From: Phytophthora colocasiae
Lineage: Eukaryota > Oomycota > Peronosporomycetes > Peronosporales > Peronosporaceae
NCBI GenBank assembly: GCA_018806915.1
Contig: JAGKQI010000061.1
Coordinates: forward strand, 496,001-560,000
DNA length: 64,000 nt
Direction: 5' to 3'
In this document: positions 1 through 62,463 of the stretch, one piece after another
Numbering within the stretch: the stretch's first letter is position 1
Layout: each line of letters opens with the position of its first letter
Program-made: the position numbers and the translations under genes
The notes under the pieces: model-generated
Databases searched by the model: none
Seen by the model: only the letters and a program-made list of their open reading frames with translations
Told to the model about the DNA's origin: nothing

Positions 1-25
1 ACTCATCGTTGGAAGTGCGGTCAAC

Positions 26-946
26 GCCGACGCACACGTCGGCGGATTCTCCAACCGCATCCTCTGGTACTGTAACCCAGTACCAGTACGTGTCAAGACG
101 TTCAACGTCTCGACACTCGGTGTCTGCACTGCAGATACACCCGTCTCAGTCCCGGACTGAGACTCGCGCAGCTCCCTGAGCTTGCGCCGCGAAGATCTAC
201 CGTGGAGCCCGGCTCCAGGCGCTCCACGTCCAAGGCATCGCACCTTGGACGGGACGTTATCGCAATCGTCAGCGGATTCCTTCCGCTGACTCGCACTATC
301 AAGCCCTGCTTGAGTGCCGCTCATCGCGTGCAGCGCTGCCGCACGTGAGCACGCAGGTTGTTCGGGTGCTGGGCGTTTGCAACCGCCAGCACCTCCTGCC
401 GCGCAGTCGGTTCCCTGAACCGCTGCGCCTCCATCCGCTCCCGGAGCGGATGAAGCAACCCCATCGTCGACTCCCGGAGTCGACGTGCTCTCGCTAGCTT
501 CCTGCGCTAGCGAGTGTTCGCTTGTACACATATCATCCGTTCCCAGAGCGGATGTACGATCGCTAGTTCCCGGAACTAGTAGCGACTGTTCGCCTATACA
601 CGTCTCATCAGCTCCCGGAGCTGATGACCGATCGCTAGTTCCCGGAACTAGCAGCGAAGCGCCAGTGGCGTCAGCTCCCAGAGCTGACGCACGCCTTTCG
701 GTTCCCCGAATATTATTTGCTTCGTCAACTCCCAGAGTTGACGCGACGTCGTCGGCGCGACCCTTGGGGCTTGAAGTACCTCCAAGGATACCGGTAATAC
801 CGGTATTTTACCTTCTCTCAGGTGAATGCGATTCACCTGACCATCACTCATGTGACAAACATCATTCAGATGTTTATGCGTCAGGTGATTCACATTCACC
901 TGACCATCACTCATGTGACCGCGACCCTTCGGCTCAGATTTCTGAG
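26..946. repeat. Array of short hairpins downstream of gag-protease
   Basis: A run of perfect or near-perfect inverted repeats. Arms (left/right start): 64/80 (7 bp), 143/155 (9), 227/243 (9), 268/282 (9), 432/444 (9), 465/477 (9), 491/506 (8), 534/549 (6), 563/573 (7), 606/618 (9), 634/645 (8), 669/681 (9), 697/706 (5), 723/735 (9), 788/800 (7), 818/831 (10), 857/869 (7), 881/896 (8). Many loops are exactly CCG or CCA, flanked by CTC...GAG or GTTC...GAAC. Two copies of an 18-base segment starting GACCATCACTC occur at 838 and 902. The stems are far more numerous than chance allows. Small ORFs here on either strand look like by-products of the palindromic structure. No promoter or terminator function can be shown. 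Confidence 0.9.
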
Positions 947-2560
947 TCGACACATTATTTTTCTCCCAACGTCGCTCGGAGTCGTTGATGGTCGCCGGCG
1001 GCGATCGGAGGCAGCGGCGGCCGCTGCTGCCTCAACTGGGGATCCGCATGCACCGGCCGGTGCATGTGTAGCACTGACAGGGCCATCGCTCTCTGTCGCG
1101 CATGTGTTGTTGAAGCGTACGAGCGTACGCTTCTCCCAGTTGATCACCGGGTCATGCCGTGCAAGCCACGGCATGCCTAATACCAAGTCGAACTTATCGT
1201 CTAGATCCAAGACGATAAGATCTTCTACAAACGTCCTTCGTTTGTAAGAGAAGCACACACGGACTACGCGCTTCTCAGTCCTCACGGTGGCACCTGTTGC
1301 CAACCGCACCTCCAACACGCCGCGAGGCGTGTCGGCCTCCTTGAAGTCAAACCTACGAAGACTTCCCTGCCGAACAAAGTTGTTCGACGCGCCCGAGTCC
1401 ACTAGGGCACGAAGAGAGTTCGCTCTCTTCGACATCACGTTCAGGATGACAAGGTTTGGCTTGTCATCTTGCAGCTTACAGCGAGAAACCTTCTCGCTGG
1501 GGGCAGCAGTCCTCATCGTCGCGTGTCCAAGCTCGACACGCGAGACTGCATCACCAGTAGGACGCCCCGCGCCTACTGGTCCTTGGCGTTTTTTTGAACG
1601 CCCGCCCGCTGTGCACTCGCGTGCATAGTGACCGATGTTACTACACTTGTAACATCGAACCTTGACGTTCTTACGCTGCTGTTGACCAGCAGTCGTAGCA
1701 CTCGAGAGGTCCATAGGTTCCGGACCTCCCGTCTTCGCAACGGGACGCGCCGGCTTTGGCGCGTTCGCATGGAGTTTAGCTTGACGCCGGCTAAACTCCT
1801 CTTGCATTGCAAGGCTGATCGCCTCTTCGAGAGTATTCGGATACTCTCGGAAGCGATACGTCTTGACGGGACCATCTCTTAGTCCCTTCATGAACGTGAC
1901 GACCTTGGTCGCCTCGTCGATCGGGTTGGCCACTATGTTCGATACCAAGTATCGAGCACGCTGGGCAAAGGTGTGAACATCATCCTTGCCCTGCTGCAGA
2001 TCGAGAAACTCCGCTCTCGATCTGAACTCGTTCTTCGGAGGCTCAAACGCAAGTTTGAGTTCCTCCTTGAACACCTCATACGTGCTGAAGCACGTAGGAT
2101 CCGAGAGTCGGCGCCCATAGGCCCAACTCCTCGCACGTCCGCCAAGACATGACATGGCGAACGCGACCTTCGACATCGGATCGACGATACGTCGAGCCGC
2201 AACTGCTGTGTCAAGTTCGACAAGCCAACGAAGGAGGGTCTCGTCCTCCTTCCCCGTGTAGGTACTCACGTGGAGTTTCAACGACTCCACGCGTGGCTTA
2301 GGGGAAGCCACCGAGGCAGCAACATCTCGTTGCTCCTTAACAATGTACCCCAGAGCAACACCGTGTTGCTCTGTCGGCGATAGCGTACGAAGCATCGTCG
2401 CTACCGCTGCCTCTCCAATGACTTGTGAAAGTCTTTGGAGAGCTTCCCACTCTGGATCTGACAGGTGGGCGCAGTCCGTGCGCGTCTCGGACATGTGAGG
2501 GGTCCCAGCGGATCCCTCATCCATTGGGGAGTTCTCTACCCCGCGTTCGTATGACTCCAT
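911..2560 (-). CDS. Gag-protease polyprotein of the hairpin-rich gypsy element
   Basis: This 549-residue ORF is intact. Residues 1-90 are a variable leader containing the motif EWEALQRLSQVIGEA. Residues about 95-270 form the capsid-like retrotransposon gag domain (W, Y/F and LxxGL-type spacing). A CCHC zinc knuckle, CYKCSNIGHYAREC, lies at about 302-315 (DNA 1615-1657). An aspartic protease follows, with the active-site motif DSGAS at about residue 387 and a downstream VLGMPWL motif. The C-terminal tail is Ala- and Arg-rich. Gag would form the virus-like particle and bind RNA; the protease would cut the polyprotein. The ATG at 2560 lies inside a 10-bp hairpin about 50 bases from the candidate LTR. 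Codons throughout the ORF are arranged so that neighbouring segments are reverse complements. The stop at 911 may be the natural end of this ORF or a break before pol. Confidence 0.85.
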   Translation of the reverse strand: MESYERGVENSPMDEGSAGTPHMSETRTDCAHLSDPEWEALQRLSQVIGEAAVATMLRTLSPTEQHGVALGYIVKEQRDVAASVASPKPRVESLKLHVSTYTGKEDETLLRWLVELDTAVAARRIVDPMSKVAFAMSCLGGRARSWAYGRRLSDPTCFSTYEVFKEELKLAFEPPKNEFRSRAEFLDLQQGKDDVHTFAQRARYLVSNIVANPIDEATKVVTFMKGLRDGPVKTYRFREYPNTLEEAISLAMQEEFSRRQAKLHANAPKPARPVAKTGGPEPMDLSSATTAGQQQRKNVKVRCYKCSNIGHYARECTAGGRSKKRQGPVGAGRPTGDAVSRVELGHATMRTAAPSEKVSRCKLQDDKPNLVILNVMSKRANSLRALVDSGASNNFVRQGSLRRFDFKEADTPRGVLEVRLATGATVRTEKRVVRVCFSYKRRTFVEDLIVLDLDDKFDLVLGMPWLARHDPVINWEKRTLVRFNNTCATESDGPVSATHAPAGACGSPVEAAAAAAASDRRRRPSTTPSDVGRKIMCRLRNLSRRVAVT

Positions 2561-2609
2561 ACGAACGAACAGCAGTCGGTCGTGGGACGGACTACAAAGT
2601 GCTACCAGG

Positions 2610-3071
2610 TGTAATGGGTCTACCTAGACCTATTAGATGGCGTACACGTGCGCTTACGTGTATGAGGAAGCGTGCAATTAGAATAGACTTAATTTAAGTA
2701 TACTTATTTATATAAGTATAATTAAATCAAATATAACTAAATTAAACTGCAAATTACCGTAAAATGAGAACTGTTATTGAATTTGGCATAAGCCAATTAT
2801 GGACCTCCTAAAACTGTTTGTTATCTATTTCTAAAGGGTCTGCCAACGTGTGGTTGGCAGAAACTCTGCTCAGTGATTGGTAGAAATCCGTTACTTTCTA
2901 CCAATAATATGCACAAATGCACACGAACCACCCAATAATGTGGTTCGCCCATGTATCCATTGGTGTGTACAGCACACCAAGGTCTGAGGCCCATTTCCAA
3001 CCTCTAACAGTTATCCTAACTGTTAGAGTTACAAGTGGTACAACCACTTGTACGTGTAACCCCGTTACACA
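2610..3071 (-). repeat. Candidate 5' LTR of the hairpin-rich gypsy element
   Basis: A 462-base segment beginning TG and ending CA, placed between the gag start and unrelated sequence. Just inside it (minus strand, from 2607) is TGGTAGCACTTTGTAGTCC, a plausible tRNA primer-binding site because it opens with TGG. The segment is AT-rich in the middle and has hairpins at 2617/2625, 2643/2656, 2839/2853 (9 bp), 2876/2895 (11 bp), 2924/2940 (8 bp), 2960/2973 (8 bp), 3002/3017 (12 bp), 3030/3043 (10 bp) and 3054/3064 (7 bp). The boundaries are inferred, as the partner LTR is outside the window. Confidence 0.5.
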
Positions 3072-3319
3072 TGTGAAACCGGAGTGATAGGATGGAAGGT
3101 GTGGAGATTTTGAAGATGTTGAATAGGGATCGAATCTGTGGAGTAAGTATGGGGAAGAACGCTGATCTTTGAAGTTGGAAAGATTACGTGGAATTGAAAA
3201 GAGGCCAGGCTGGAGTCGGGATCGCGTGGCGAAGTACCGGATCGTGATAAAGAATATGTAAGCGTGCTGATCGACTCCAGGTTCGGCTGATCACCTCCGG
3301 ACTGGTCGAGATCGCGAGA

Positions 3320-9785: not shown

Positions 9786-10073
9786 TATGACGTTTGCGCG
9801 CTTCAAAGTAATTTGCGAAGTGAGTTTATTAAAGCAAGCAGTTCCTCGAGCTTACCTCCTAGTTCTACTTGCCTCAGTACGCTCCAGCTCCCCAGCACCA
9901 ACCATTGGTGCTTGTTGATGAAGGTCGCTGTTGACGCGGCACACATGCAGTTGTATATGCAGCCCGATGTTGACGCGGTCTTCCAGGTGTACATGTAGAT
10001 GTCGGTAGGTCGCTGTCTGCACGTCGTCGCGTCGGCGACAGCAGTGCCAGGTCGTCTGATACAATACCCCGAA
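9786..10073 (-). repeat. 3' LTR of the 4.5-kb gypsy
   Basis: It is 288 bases and matches 13965-14252 apart from single differences near 9811, 10044 and the last three bases (GAA against ACA). In element orientation it begins TTCGGGGTATT (TGTGGGGTATT in the other copy) and ends AAACGTCATA. Confidence 0.9.
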
Positions 10074-13964: not shown

Positions 13965-14252
13965 TATGACGTTTGCGCGCTTCAAAGTAAGTTGCGAAGT
14001 GAGTTTATTAAAGCAAGCAGTTCCTCGAGCTTACCTCCTAGTTCTACTTGCCTCAGTACGCTCCAGCTCCCCAGCACCAACCATTGGTGCTTGTTGATGA
14101 AGGTCGCTGTTGACGCGGCACACATGCAGTTGTATATGCAGCCCGATGTTGACGCGGTCTTCCAGGTGTACATGTAGATGTCGGTAGGTCGCTGTCTGCA
14201 CGTCGTCGCGTCGGCGACAGCAGCGCCAGGTCGTCTGATACAATACCCCACA
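13965..14252 (-). repeat. 5' LTR of the 4.5-kb gypsy
   Basis: It is 288 bases and in element orientation begins TGTGGGGTATTG and ends ACGTCATA. It is flanked on the outside by the target duplication CTCGT (14253-14257). Short frames shared by the two LTRs are not genes. Confidence 0.9.
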
Positions 14253-17349: not shown

Positions 17350-17789
17350 GGCGGTTTGTTCTTAGAAATGCCCGTCCAGATGAAGATCACACGAGTGATA
17401 CCCCCGAGCTGCGCAGCAAACGAATGTGGCAACGTCAAGTTGGAGTAGATGGGATGACAAATGAAAAACGGCATGACAGATACCGGGTGAAGTTTTTAAA
17501 TGTGTCTCGATTCATGGATGAAGCAGCACTGGATGCGTATATTCGCTCAAATTCAGTGGCACCTACGCAACATTCCAAGAACCAAAATATGGGAGGCAGA
17601 CATTTCAAACGGGGATTTTCTTTAAGTCTCCTGGATGCCCAGCGTTTCTGGAGAAGATAAGATTCATTGACTGGATGGGAAAGAAGATACTAGTTCATCA
17701 CGCAGGAACAAATCCAGCTCCACCTTGCTACAACTGTGGAAATCCTGGTCACACTGTTGTTCAATGCAAGTCCAAGCATGATGCGCGAG
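17350..17789 (+). pseudogene. LINE ORF1, 3' part with CCHC zinc knuckle
   Basis: After the pogo element the LINE frame continues, with a frameshift near 17440, through HDRYRVKFLNVSRFMDEAAL and GIFFKSPGCPAFLEKIRFID. It then enters a zinc knuckle, PPCYNCGNPGHTVVQC (about 17733-17770), typical of RNA-binding ORF1 proteins. The knuckle runs straight into the perfect inverted repeat at 17790. Confidence 0.65.
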
Positions 17790-19155
17790 ACTCATAACTT
17801 CCTCTGTTGTAACTGTGATACATCCATCACAGTTACAACAGAGGAAGTTATGAGTCTTGATCGGCACAAATCAACCATCACAAGCATTCAGGAACTTGAA
17901 CAAATGTGGGAGGCACAAGCAGAAGTAAAGATACAGGAACAGAGCGTAGTTTCATTAAAGGAAAATAATTTGGGGCAGAAAGCACCGAAACAGAGCAAGG
18001 AGGGACAACCTAGCCAGCCTGGCTCAGCCAAGCAAACTGATGAATGGCAAACTCCTTCAAGAAAGCAAAGTTTTCGACCGGGTAGATCGATCCAAGAGGC
18101 CATACGAGAAGAACGAGACAGGCAACAGGAAACCATTCCGAGTGACCTCATTGATGTTTGTAGTCCCACAACAGACGAGGAAGATACTGAGGACAACGCG
18201 GAATCAACAAGAATTGTGGAGTTAAAAAGGCCTGAAGTGTTATCCAAGCAAACACGGCTGATTGAAGAAGCCGTTAATAAGAGTAAGATGAATCCGCAGA
18301 CGGACCAACAGGATTTGATGGAACCAGATGAATTGGAATTCAAGGAAACTCTAACTGGATATGATGTACTCCGATACTGCGGGCTCAATCCTGTATCTAC
18401 ACCAGCCACAGGAAACTGTCAGTTCTACGGTATTGCTATGGCTCTGCTAAATAGCAAGTTTGAAACTACAGCTAAGACTGCTATCGAGAATATCACCGCA
18501 AAGGTGAAGAAGGGACTAGTGATGGCGGCACAGCATGGATTTGAGGTGGAGTTTCCGCATGAGACCCGAAAGGCGTTACTAAGCTCAAATATGACAAGAG
18601 CAGGCGAACACACCATTAATGAATCAAAGGAACGTCTCCAGGAGTACCTCCAGGACATTGGCAGCTCAAGTTCAAAGTCGAACGCGTTCCTTTCGCGTTC
18701 ATATTGGGGATCGGAGTTGACACTGTTGATGATAGCGAAATTGCTGATGAAACCGATTTATCTTGTGGTCGGACGAGAAGGTTTGAACAAAGCCAGCTAT
18801 CAGATCTTCCGACCAATGCAGAAGACCACAAAGACGCATAAGCTGGATTCAGCTGGAGAATTCAACTTCAGACCCGACGAAGCCGAGAAATGGATCACTG
18901 AATTGAAAAAAACACAGGAAAGAGGCAGCCAAAACAGGTCAATTCCCCGTAGTACTACATTCTGGAGGAGTTCACTATACTTGGTTAAGATTTGGAGCGC
19001 CTTCCGAGACAGAATTGAGCAATTTCTTCTTGACTGACAGTGACCAAAAGGACAACGGCGAGTTCACAAACTCCGGAGGGAGTGAAATGGTAGAACCTAC
19101 TGAAAACACAGCAGACGTTAAAAAAGAGGACAATGCCAGAAGCTTGAAGATGTAG
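17736..19155 (+). pseudogene. LINE-encoded OTU-type cysteine-protease-like region
   Basis: A 433-residue frame (17736-19037) starts with the duplicated Cys-rich peptide, passes through a charged Gln/Glu-rich linker, and reaches TPATGNCQFYGIAMALL (GNC Cys codon 18417-18419). This is the active-site box of OTU cysteine proteases; the usual Asp before Gly is Thr here. The partner His box, GGVHYTWLRFGAP (His codon 18973-18975), is in the +1 frame, so one frameshift between about 18900 and 18970 separates them. After it the frame runs to a stop near 19155. OTU enzymes cleave ubiquitin or polyprotein bonds; a role in processing LINE proteins is inference. Confidence 0.7.
17790..17857. repeat. Perfect 31-bp inverted repeat with a 6-base loop
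   Basis: Arms 17790-17820 and 17827-17857 are exactly reverse complementary; the loop is ACATCC. It lies in LINE coding sequence next to the CCHC knuckle, and both strands of the arm encode a Cys-containing peptide (HNFLCCNC). The stem is too long for chance and fits a local fold-back duplication. Confidence 0.97.
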
Positions 19156-60142: not shown

Positions 60143-62463
60143 ATGGTGCGCGTGCCCGGATCTTCTGGTGACTTCGGATATCACCGTGAGTCCCAAGAAG
60201 ATGTCAAGATTAAAGAAGAACAAGGGGAAGAAGTGCCTACGAAGGTTGGATCGACGGAGGCACCGATGAAAACAGAAAGATCCACAGATCAGCAGAGTTC
60301 TGGGAGGATCTCTACTGACAGGCACGAGGCAGACCTGGATCGCAATCCAGATCTCGAAGAAAAACCTCGAATTCCTCCCCAGGCCCCGTTGAGGGCCATT
60401 GCGGATCTCGACGAGAATCGAGATCCGCACACGAGCGATAAGGAATCAGCAAAGCTGAAACCTAATCTGCTCACCAAGTCCACTGTTGCCTCAAGATCTA
60501 CCAAAAAAAAAGAAGATCAAGAGCACCCGGACGAAATTGAAAGCTCCAGACTCAGAGCCAGAAGATGTGATCAACCCAGGATCAACGATCACCAGGGATG
60601 CGATCGAGCAGGCCTACTACAGGAAAAGGCTAAGCGAGACCTTGCTTAACGATCCCGTTCTCACGATCATACAAGTCCGCCAGATCGGTAACCTCACCGG
60701 ACCAGTGTCGAAGCCCCGGACTAGCTCTGACCGCCTGAACGCGGTGAAGATCCTACTTGATCTGCTCCAAGAAGCTGGTTTGGTGGCTGGAGAGTTCGAC
60801 CCGAACTCTCTATTTGACTTGGAGCTGCAAGCGATTCAATCTGCGACCCAGGATCTATTCGATTCCCTCAAGATCTTGGTCGGCGAGCGCCCACTGACGC
60901 CCGACCCAGGCTATCAGACTGGGTCGTCATGCTACGCGTCAGCGACCTCGGAACCAGACTCAGATAGCCCGAGAAGGCTGCAACGCATGTCGTTAGGGCC
61001 CTCCGGCGCCAAGTTCCTGAAATCGCGTATGAAGAAACAGGATACACGATCGGTGGCTGCGAAGCTGGAGGTCAAGATGCCCGATCAGCAAGAAAATCGC
61101 CGGATCCGGACGGACCAGACCGCGCCGACGACTAACTCCACTGGATCGAGCAACAAGTTGGACGACTACTTTCAAATAGCGATGGATCGTTTCTTGAAAG
61201 AACGGAATCTCGCGACACCCCGATCGCCGATCAAAGGGGAGTTAGATGTTGAAATGGAGTCCGTCACGGCCTCGGATCCGGATGCATGGGAATACGATCC
61301 GGACGATCTGGGCATACCAAGTTCCGGGGGACAGATGTCGAGCCGAGCCACGATCGCATCCGCGGCGATCGGTCAAGGAGGATCGTCGATGATCCAGCGG
61401 GTCCGGATCTCAGCGATCTCGGATCTGAAAGATTTTGCGGGTAAAGATCTGGACGAAGATCGCGCTCGGGCCTGGATCAGTAAAGTCAAGTCGGCGTTCC
61501 AACGCGATCAGGCTACGGAAGAAGAGAAATGCCTCACGTTTGCAGATCTGATGGTGGGACCGGCAAAGAACTGGTACAGGCAGCTCAGTCGAACGACGAA
61601 AACCAAGTGGGCGGATCTGTTGGACAGTTTCCAGACCCAATATTGTGGGTTGGGTATGTCGGTCGCGTGGCAATACTATCACGCTCGCAAGCGATCGGAA
61701 GAAACCCCTCTCGATTATCTCTACCGGCTCAACGTGGCGGCTTTACGTGCTAGACTGAAGATCAGGACGGGAGCCCTAAGGCCCGCCGAGAACATGTGGA
61801 CCACTACATAGAGACATTGGGAGATCCGGAGTTAGCTGATCGGCTGACCCTACTCCGACTGGAGTGACGTCGAGGAGCTGGAGGAGGTACTCCGTGCCGG
61901 GAACGGGCGAAAAGCAGGCAGCGTAAATCTGCGTTCGGATCGAAGTACAGACAAAAGGCACCGGCCAGTGCCCCGGCAGCTCCCACCCGAGCGGTGGTAC
62001 GGGCGATCCAAACTCAAGATCCGAGCTCAGAATCAGAAGAAATATCCGGATCGGATGGATCCGATTCTGAAGGCGATCTCCGGAGGATATATCTTGCCGC
62101 GTCAGAAGACAAGCCGATCGGTGCTGGGGCGCTCCCCACCAACAGGATCAGTTGCGATCACACACGAACGTGCAGGACCGAGGCCGGACCACGGATCGCA
62201 GACAACCAGATCACGATAGAGGTCGCTGTTCGCATTGTGGGTCGCGGAAGCACACGGATCTGGACTGCTGGAGACGTCTAACCTGTGACAAGTGCGGAAA
62301 GAGGGGCCACCCAACGGATCGCTGTCTATATACATGCCGTGGTTGTGGGGAGATCCATGAAGCTGGAGAATGCCCCATGGAAGAATTCTACAACCAGATC
62401 CGCAAGTGGTACGATCCGACCCGACATGCCGGACTGTTTCCCGAGAAGGTGGAAAGATGTTAA
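60143..62463 (+). pseudogene. Gypsy gag with zinc knuckles, frameshifted
   Basis: ATG 60143 opens MVRVPGSSGDFGYHRES. At an A9 run (60503-60511) the frame changes to one that continues to 61811: ITRDAIEQAYYRKRLSETLL, ISAISDLKDFAGKDLDEDRA, RAWISKVKSAFQRDQATEEE, YRQLSRTTKTKWADLLDSFQ and ARKRSEETPLDYLYRLNVAA, the capsid-like gag domain. After more frame changes, 62152-62463 has CSHCGSRKHTDLDCW and CDKCGKRGHPTDRCLY with CRGCGEIHEAGECP, two to three CCHC knuckles. The copy is decayed, unless the A9 slip is programmed. Confidence 0.85.
60144..60160 (+). other. Candidate primer-binding site
   Basis: TGGTGCGCGTGCCCGGA begins two bases after the LTR end and opens with TGG, as for priming by a tRNA 3' end. 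The gag ATG (60143) overlaps it by one base, an unusually tight layout. The tRNA is not identified. Confidence 0.5.

Follow-up and report, generated by a model that had tools for sequence, protein, structure and literature searches.

The locus described here raises the question of how a mobile element can come to carry short, perfect hairpins along its entire length, and of what keeps them perfect. It stands at the start of a stretch of 64,000 nucleotides (nt) of the Phytophthora colocasiae genome (contig JAGKQI010000061.1, positions 496,001 to 560,000; hereafter the window), of which positions 1-3069 are the 5' part of an 8.3-kilobase (kb) Ty3/gypsy retrotransposon whose sense strand is the minus strand; the element extends past the window start to C34:490771, i.e. 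5.2 kb before the window. A first-pass annotation had claimed a dense field of short inverted repeats at this place, with at least 28 stems of 9-12 base pairs (bp). We propose that the element belongs to a Phytophthora clade of Ty3/gypsy elements with a maintained, sequence-independent carpet of hairpins (arms of 7-13 bp, loops mostly of 1-9 nt, one hairpin per about 44 nt over the whole length), which would be made and repaired by fold-back template switching and whose pairing would be under selection. In our judgement this reading has an even chance of being correct.

The counts of hairpins exceed those of shuffled sequences by a wide margin. Taking maximal perfect stems of at least 8 bp with loops of 0-10 nt, the definition used unless otherwise stated, 44 stems were found in positions 1-3071, distributed from 25 to 3052, and 34 of them reach at least 9 bp; the means in 30 dinucleotide shuffles were 0.63 (maximum 2) and 0.13 (maximum 1), respectively. 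The field is thus more extensive than had been claimed, and all eleven coordinate pairs quoted in the first-pass annotation were recovered to within one base. Over the whole element, from one long terminal repeat (LTR) to the other, there are 115 stems against a mean of 1.3 in 30 dinucleotide shuffles, and 85 of at least 9 bp against 0.57. Shuffles that preserve the codons likewise fail to reproduce the stems, since the gag-protease (gag-pro) frame contains 21 against 0.9 (maximum 3; 30 shuffles) and the RNase H-integrase frame 30 against 0.87. With a scored definition, 153 helices occupy 43% of the element, and successive helices start a median of 44.5 nt apart; 150 of the 153 have 7-13 pairs, their loops range from 0 to 14 nt (mostly 1-9 nt), and only 13 mismatches lie within them, so that the stems are nearly all perfect. 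The annotation had placed the field in LTR, gag and spacer, where it is indeed present, but it is not confined to them and continues through reverse transcriptase (RT), RNase H, integrase and the 3' region, the density being alike (16-22 helices per kb) in LTRs, gag, linker, RT, integrase and 3' region. The mean folding energy is -85.3 per 200 nt, compared with -63.2 after mononucleotide shuffling, which was applied once to every fourth 200-nt segment. Within gag-pro, RT and RNase H-integrase, pairing of third with third codon positions is the rarest stem phase (18/79). A regular spacing of the hairpins was considered and discarded, the gaps being about as irregular as under random placement. 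The palindromic potential of the window gag protein (22 sites against 5.3 in shuffles) is also raised in some of 22 relatives, and it was left unused because shared ancestry could explain it.

An origin by chance, base composition or faulty assembly is refuted by these shuffles, and the field recurs in all 43 other copies of the element, on many contigs; we assign this explanation a negligible probability. The rest of the window and a neighbouring gypsy element served as controls. Positions 3072-64000 (60.9 kb), which contain cellular genes and an integrase sequence that we take to be copia-like, hold 21 stems (10 shuffles average 7.9), which corresponds to 0.34 per kb as opposed to 14 per kb in the element, and the 3.7 kb past the 3' LTR (locus L039), with gypsy RT and integrase in opposite orientation, contain no stem of at least 8 bp. 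The carpet is therefore a property of the element and not of its surroundings. Of the other retroelements to which the first-pass annotation had compared the field, the copia-like integrase frame was identified inside the window and the gypsy neighbour just outside it; a LINE, which it also named, was not identified.

The way in which the hairpins arise can be addressed through the copies of the element in this 92.5-megabase genome. We read, in part, 43 other loci, a subset of the 97 and 88 matches obtained in two scans, and aligned 36 (early analyses) or 43 (later analyses) of them with the window copy, leaving out L001 and L009, which are the window's own copy. Columns with at least 20 letters were retained for variant counts, columns with at least 15 for covariation, and loops read in at least 10 copies. 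The 43 copies form one family, mostly with 92-98% DNA identity. Exact inversions of the loop were observed at six hairpins, four of them with at least three changed bases (132 loop definitions tested, some nested). In the gag hairpin at 1997-2024 (10-bp arms), copy L013 has the 8-nt loop 2007-2014 as the exact reverse complement of the most frequent version; in the hairpin at the start of gag (2544-2567, 10-bp arms), the 4-nt loop 2554-2557 is exactly inverted in L031; and in the LTR hairpin at 3002-3028 (12-bp arms), the 3-nt loop 3014-3016 is inverted in L008 and L047. The 10-bp hairpin at 818-840 has a 3-nt loop (828-830) that occurs both ways round, with 22 of 44 rows in one orientation, 10 in the other, 7 with other letters and 5 with gaps. 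Further inverted loops in L024 and L040 involve only two changed bases each. In a scan of all 3-8-nt windows, 17 of 367,516 window-copies in or beside hairpins were exactly inverted, a number that includes one loop repeated in several copies, as against none of 179,765 outside. On the tree of copies, the two-way 3-nt loop requires 5 changes, and labels shuffled 300 times required 8.9 on average and never fewer than 6; it therefore partly follows descent and was flipped or exchanged more than once. By orientation and their 8.3-kb spacing, L008 and L047 form the LTR pair of a single insertion, whose ends were read, the middle lying outside the data; as each of them has the inverted loop, the inversion took place before or during that retrotransposition.

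Such inversion of a spacer between perfect arms is a direct footprint of fold-back template switching, which the first-pass annotation had named among its possible meanings. PMC8604942 describes spacer inversion between short perfect arms as a template-switching product in yeast, and according to this paper and PMC8794818 the process also makes the arms alike and yields compensatory changes. The inverted spacers found here are of the same kind; unlike the mutations of rRNA or yeast genes treated in those papers, which arise through DNA replication, they concern one whole element and probably its retrotransposition cycle. The stage may be narrowed further by the loops themselves. Read on the sense strand, a single-copy G>A or T>C change is present at 38 of 181 loop sites, and C>T or A>G at 6 of 134 sites (p=1.4e-5; the four inverted loops were dropped from one of the two counts of this asymmetry), while stems show the opposite strand trend (p=0.09). 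This asymmetry would fit damage or mispairing at unpaired loops during minus-strand synthesis, from which we infer that the hairpins may have formed at the complementary DNA (cDNA) stage. Clusters of substitutions were also considered as signs of new stems and rejected: among 64 clusters, an inverted match was gained in 14, lost in 31 and unchanged in 19, which does not demonstrate the creation of fresh stems.

A neutral by-product is the main rival to our proposal. It supposes that fold-back template switching is exceptionally frequent when this element replicates and that it both makes inverted repeats and homogenises their arms, the hairpins being without function and surviving by conversion of one arm by the other. 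Loop inversions, stems with so few internal mismatches, the lack of preference for G-U pairs, the equal folding of both strands and the unrelated arm sequences all agree with it, and PMC6649704 and PMC8604942 reason in the same way. It can be argued, however, that unbiased conversion should leave inherited change at synonymous and non-coding stem sites undiminished, and this change is 2-4 times lower. When eight copies serve in turn as the source of the stem definition, a stem site is 1.9 to 2.7 times less likely than a spacer site, and 3.8 to 5.7 times less likely than a loop site, to have a variant shared by at least three other copies, with p<=1e-4 for the stem deficit in each of the eight references; variants present in at least three other copies occupy 34/1251 stem sites, 143/2020 spacer sites and 39/315 loop sites. 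If only third codon positions of gag-pro are counted and stems are defined on the window copy, the shared variants amount to 6/167 in stems, 36/337 in spacers and 10/43 in loops. Variants restricted to a single copy, which are probably for the most part younger than the insertion, behave otherwise, affecting a fraction of 0.209 of stem sites, 0.194 of spacer sites and 0.267 of loop sites, so that stems resemble spacers. Since the deficit concerns the shared and not the single-copy variants, pairing would have been constrained while the copies were active and not afterwards; selection on active copies is the cause that we favour for the observed deficit. The rarity of compensated pairs in recent copies further suggests that conversion is slow, and the neutral model gives no account of why only this element is affected. 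We consider it possible and, on balance, unlikely.

Whether the pairing acts in RNA or in DNA was approached through the strands and through G-U pairs. An alternative would be that the folded sense genomic RNA alone is selected, as an aid to packaging or RNA stability or as protection against small RNAs, with ordinary point mutation supplying the changes. The constraint on stem sites in active copies is compatible with it, and one strand test speaks for it: among the copies, 118 transitions leave G-U and 88 leave A-C, where the spacers predict 118.6 to 134.5, an excess of G-U-leaving changes (p=0.003). Against this stand most of the other tests. The 13 mismatches inside the 153 helices comprise one G-T, seven A-C and five others, and as the first mismatch past the stem G-T and A-C have similar frequencies (25 vs 30 inwards, 26 vs 24 outwards). 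Between relatives the same G-U to A-C comparison is flat (129 vs 116, p=0.75), and the folding energy of the antisense strand (-83.9 per 200 nt) equals that of the sense strand (p=0.44). The absence of a G-U preference and the equality of the strands argue against a model in which RNA pairing is selected through point mutation alone, and they favour the copying of arm from arm; the loop inversions, in addition, are not predicted by such selection. We regard this alternative as improbable. The earlier suggestion of selection for folded RNA is supported as far as shared variants avoid stems, and most tests do not favour it for the folding of sense RNA as such, with the single contrary test given above. 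The dyad symmetry, alike on both strands, would also suit an array of DNA sites or cruciforms recognised by a protein, again one of the earlier suggestions. By inspection of the stem list, however, the arms of different stems have unrelated sequences, and no common motif was apparent, although no motif search was made; because of these unrelated arms, and with loops that vary from 0 to 14 nt, we hold this explanation to be very improbable.

It can then be asked whether the hairpins are older than this family of copies. Searches of viral contigs and genome contigs found no DNA of relatives outside this genome, and relatives were compared through the bases that are fixed by the amino acid alone. 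The sets consisted of 120 of 431 gag, 120 of 5215 pol (59 with at least 70% identity and 61 below) and 120 of 736 antisense-frame matches, BLAST pieces of fewer than 60 residues being dropped, and the statements that follow apply to these listed matches. The gag relatives have 56-97% identity, and those that are named come nearly all from Phytophthora species; the top protein matches of the window gag are from Phytophthora citrophthora. A second Watson-Crick pair at stem positions was found in 61 cells among the gag relatives, as against 23.7 (standard deviation 3.7) with permuted partners, and in 51 against 22.2 for the 110 with less than 90% identity; controls in which the pairing was slid by seven whole-codon shifts differ from their own permutations by -9.4 to +12.7. 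In the gag hairpin at 1553-1580, the pair 1558/1575 is compensated between relatives (V/T vs A/A), codons 330/336 encoding V/T or A/A with T-A in 17 cases, C-G in 22 and other combinations in 5. In the palindrome at the end of gag-pro (1008-1033), the same holds for the pair 1011/1030 (A/A vs T/V), codons 512/518 encoding A/A or T/V with G-C in 25, A-T in 14 and G-T in 4. The pol relatives of at least 70% identity gave 19 cells against 4.4 (standard deviation 1.6; shifts -2.4 to +4.4), and those below 70%, which include Globisporangium, gave 51 against 64.9 permuted, without excess. Codon conservation follows the same pattern, with 0.79 in stems, 0.715 in spacers and 0.647 in loops for 98 gag relatives of 65-80% identity, 0.870, 0.807 and 0.779 for close pol relatives, and 0.607, 0.617 and 0.611, hence no stem advantage, for distant ones. 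Since compensation and the conservation of stem codons are seen in close but not in distant relatives, these protein comparisons suggest that the hairpins are common to a clade of such elements, which is represented in several Phytophthora species.

On this basis we hypothesise that the nascent or the template strand folds back during what was presumably reverse transcription, and that the enzyme at work would copy one arm from the other, sometimes inverting the loop, whereby stems would be created and perfected. Elements that stay locally folded as a single strand, either as genomic RNA or as cDNA, would be those that keep amplifying, and packaging, shielding from small RNAs or orderly cDNA synthesis may be the benefits of folding. 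A stronger form, in which fold-back editing acts over the whole length in each cycle, the survivors are selected to stay folded and base pairing determines which amino acids go together in gag and pol, is more tentative, and we place it somewhat below an even chance.

A number of results weigh against the proposal. The deficit of shared stem variants could also arise if bases mutated less often when paired in the intermediate of replication. Arm homogenisation is barely visible among recent copies: several pairs of the copy alignments seemed to covary, with more than one Watson-Crick type, and with permutation and slid controls three pairs were left, without a clear excess, which comprise 15 cells against a permuted mean of 4.7 and against 19 cells in the -2 slid control. 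Among variants present in at least four copies, 15 transitions leave a mismatch and four columns are compensated. The compensation for which the first-pass annotation had recommended a test was weak among young copies, and it exceeded the controls at the amino-acid level between relatives. Even there, the excess derives from few pairs, namely seven further pair types in gag and three in pol of at least 70% identity, and the -3 slid control of gag has nine pair types, more than the seven of the true pairing. The +9 shift of pol holds more raw cells than the true pairing (21, against 16.6 permuted). One-sided changes in gag affect 774 cells, compared with 92 compensated ones, for all 120 relatives. 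The choice of codons gave no signal of full pairability (183/595 against 185.7 permuted; 24 of 25 stems, one being omitted for a shared codon), and the antisense 3' frame, with relatives of 49-88% identity, gave a weak one (50 against 42.8, standard deviation 4.5). Given the weak covariation within the genome, selection and neutral models both fall short of proof.

Apart from its hairpins, the element has the anatomy of an ordinary Ty3/gypsy retrotransposon. The 5' LTR (460 bp, TG...CA ends) occupies 2610-3069 on the minus strand and is 98.5% identical to the 3' LTR at C34:490771-491230; the element ends at 3069 and not at 3071 as had been supposed, since the 5-bp target-site duplication (sense ACATG), repeated directly and immediately past the 3' LTR, lies at 3070-3074. 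Two nucleotides from the LTR, the sense sequence TGGTAGCA (2600-2607, minus strand) is what we take to be a probable primer-binding site, and the purine-rich run that precedes the 3' LTR presumably has its usual, putative role. Pfam identifies Retrotrans_gag, Ty3_capsid, a CCHC knuckle and RVP_2 in the gag-protease frame (911-2560, minus strand), and the element as a whole encodes gag, Ty3 capsid, CCHC knuckle and aspartic protease, then RT, RNase H and integrase, an order that is shared, like the LTR organisation, with Phytophthora Ty3/gypsy elements; an SH3_Tf2-1 domain was also identified. Rfam and tRNA scans of the window found nothing. A linker frame rich in Ser/Ala/Pro runs towards RT (1-807, minus strand) and contains repeated hairpin modules (cores such as CTCCGGGAG); its length differs among copies, its S/A/P/G peptide modules are repeated, and the DNA of the modules forms hairpins with related cores and differing outer arms. 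Between integrase and the 3' LTR, a frame opposite to gag-pol was noticed (L039:4221-5879, plus strand; C34:491221-492879), interrupted by one stop. Its second part has 736 relatives, the named ones among the 120 listed being nearly all hypothetical proteins of Phytophthora, and a Pfam search of the frame gave no match; it may be a conserved antisense gene or a separate gene of these elements.

Further hairpins illustrate the range of forms in the window. The linker contains a 10-bp stem with a 1-nt loop at 143-163 and, within a module, an 11-bp stem with a 1-nt loop at 605-627. A perfect 20-bp palindrome, with 10-bp arms and no loop, lies at 1047-1066, followed at 1112-1133 by a 10-bp stem with a 2-nt loop. 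In gag, stems of 10 bp (loop 9 nt) and 11 bp (loop 1 nt) are found at 1771-1799 and 2351-2373, and in the LTR stems of 11 bp (loop 8 nt) and 10 bp (loop 3 nt) at 2876-2905 and 3030-3052. Outside the element, a lone long perfect inverted repeat with 32-bp arms and a 6-nt loop occupies 17788-17857, and an identical 8-bp hairpin occurs at both 9894-9912 and 14073-14091; these sites are separated by 4.2 kb and may belong to the LTR pair of a different element. At 60400-60926, a segment of 530 bp contains three stems of 8-12 bp, above what is usual outside the element; the frame at 60459-61808 gave no family match.

Whole-genome folding far above that of shuffled sequences is known from the genome-scale ordered RNA structure of RNA viruses. 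The element resembles these in folding across its whole length far above shuffles, and it differs from them in that the strands fold alike, the hairpins are short and perfect, and G-U is not favoured within the stems. Its nearest analogue is found in the coding palindromes of nematomorph mitochondria (PMC6649704), a study that reports repeats of at least 15 bp with a mean of 43 bp, 110 of them in four genomes of about 15 kb, names template switching as their possible maker and keeper, and considers a neutral model. In both cases many perfect inverted repeats lie in coding sequence, both arms encode conserved residues, imperfect repeats are few, and hairpins are gained and lost. In contrast to those animal mitochondrial repeats, the present ones belong to an LTR retrotransposon on a contig with LTR elements and cellular genes, have arms of 7-13 bp and not of tens of bp, and follow each other about every 44 nt, LTRs included. 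Full-text literature searches returned no retroelement with a comparable carpet; most subscription journals were outside their coverage, so the absence is unproven.

Should the proposal be correct, tools that rely on covariation or on inverted repeats for the prediction of genes and non-coding RNAs could misread such elements. Whether perfect hairpins are kept by template switching alone or by selection is directly testable on existing genomes. Since each copy has about 150 hairpins and dozens of copies are young, the family would allow the creation and repair of hairpins by template switching and the inversion of their loops to be counted in a natural setting, and it would show how the pairing of nucleic acids forces linked amino-acid changes in the proteins of these Phytophthora elements.

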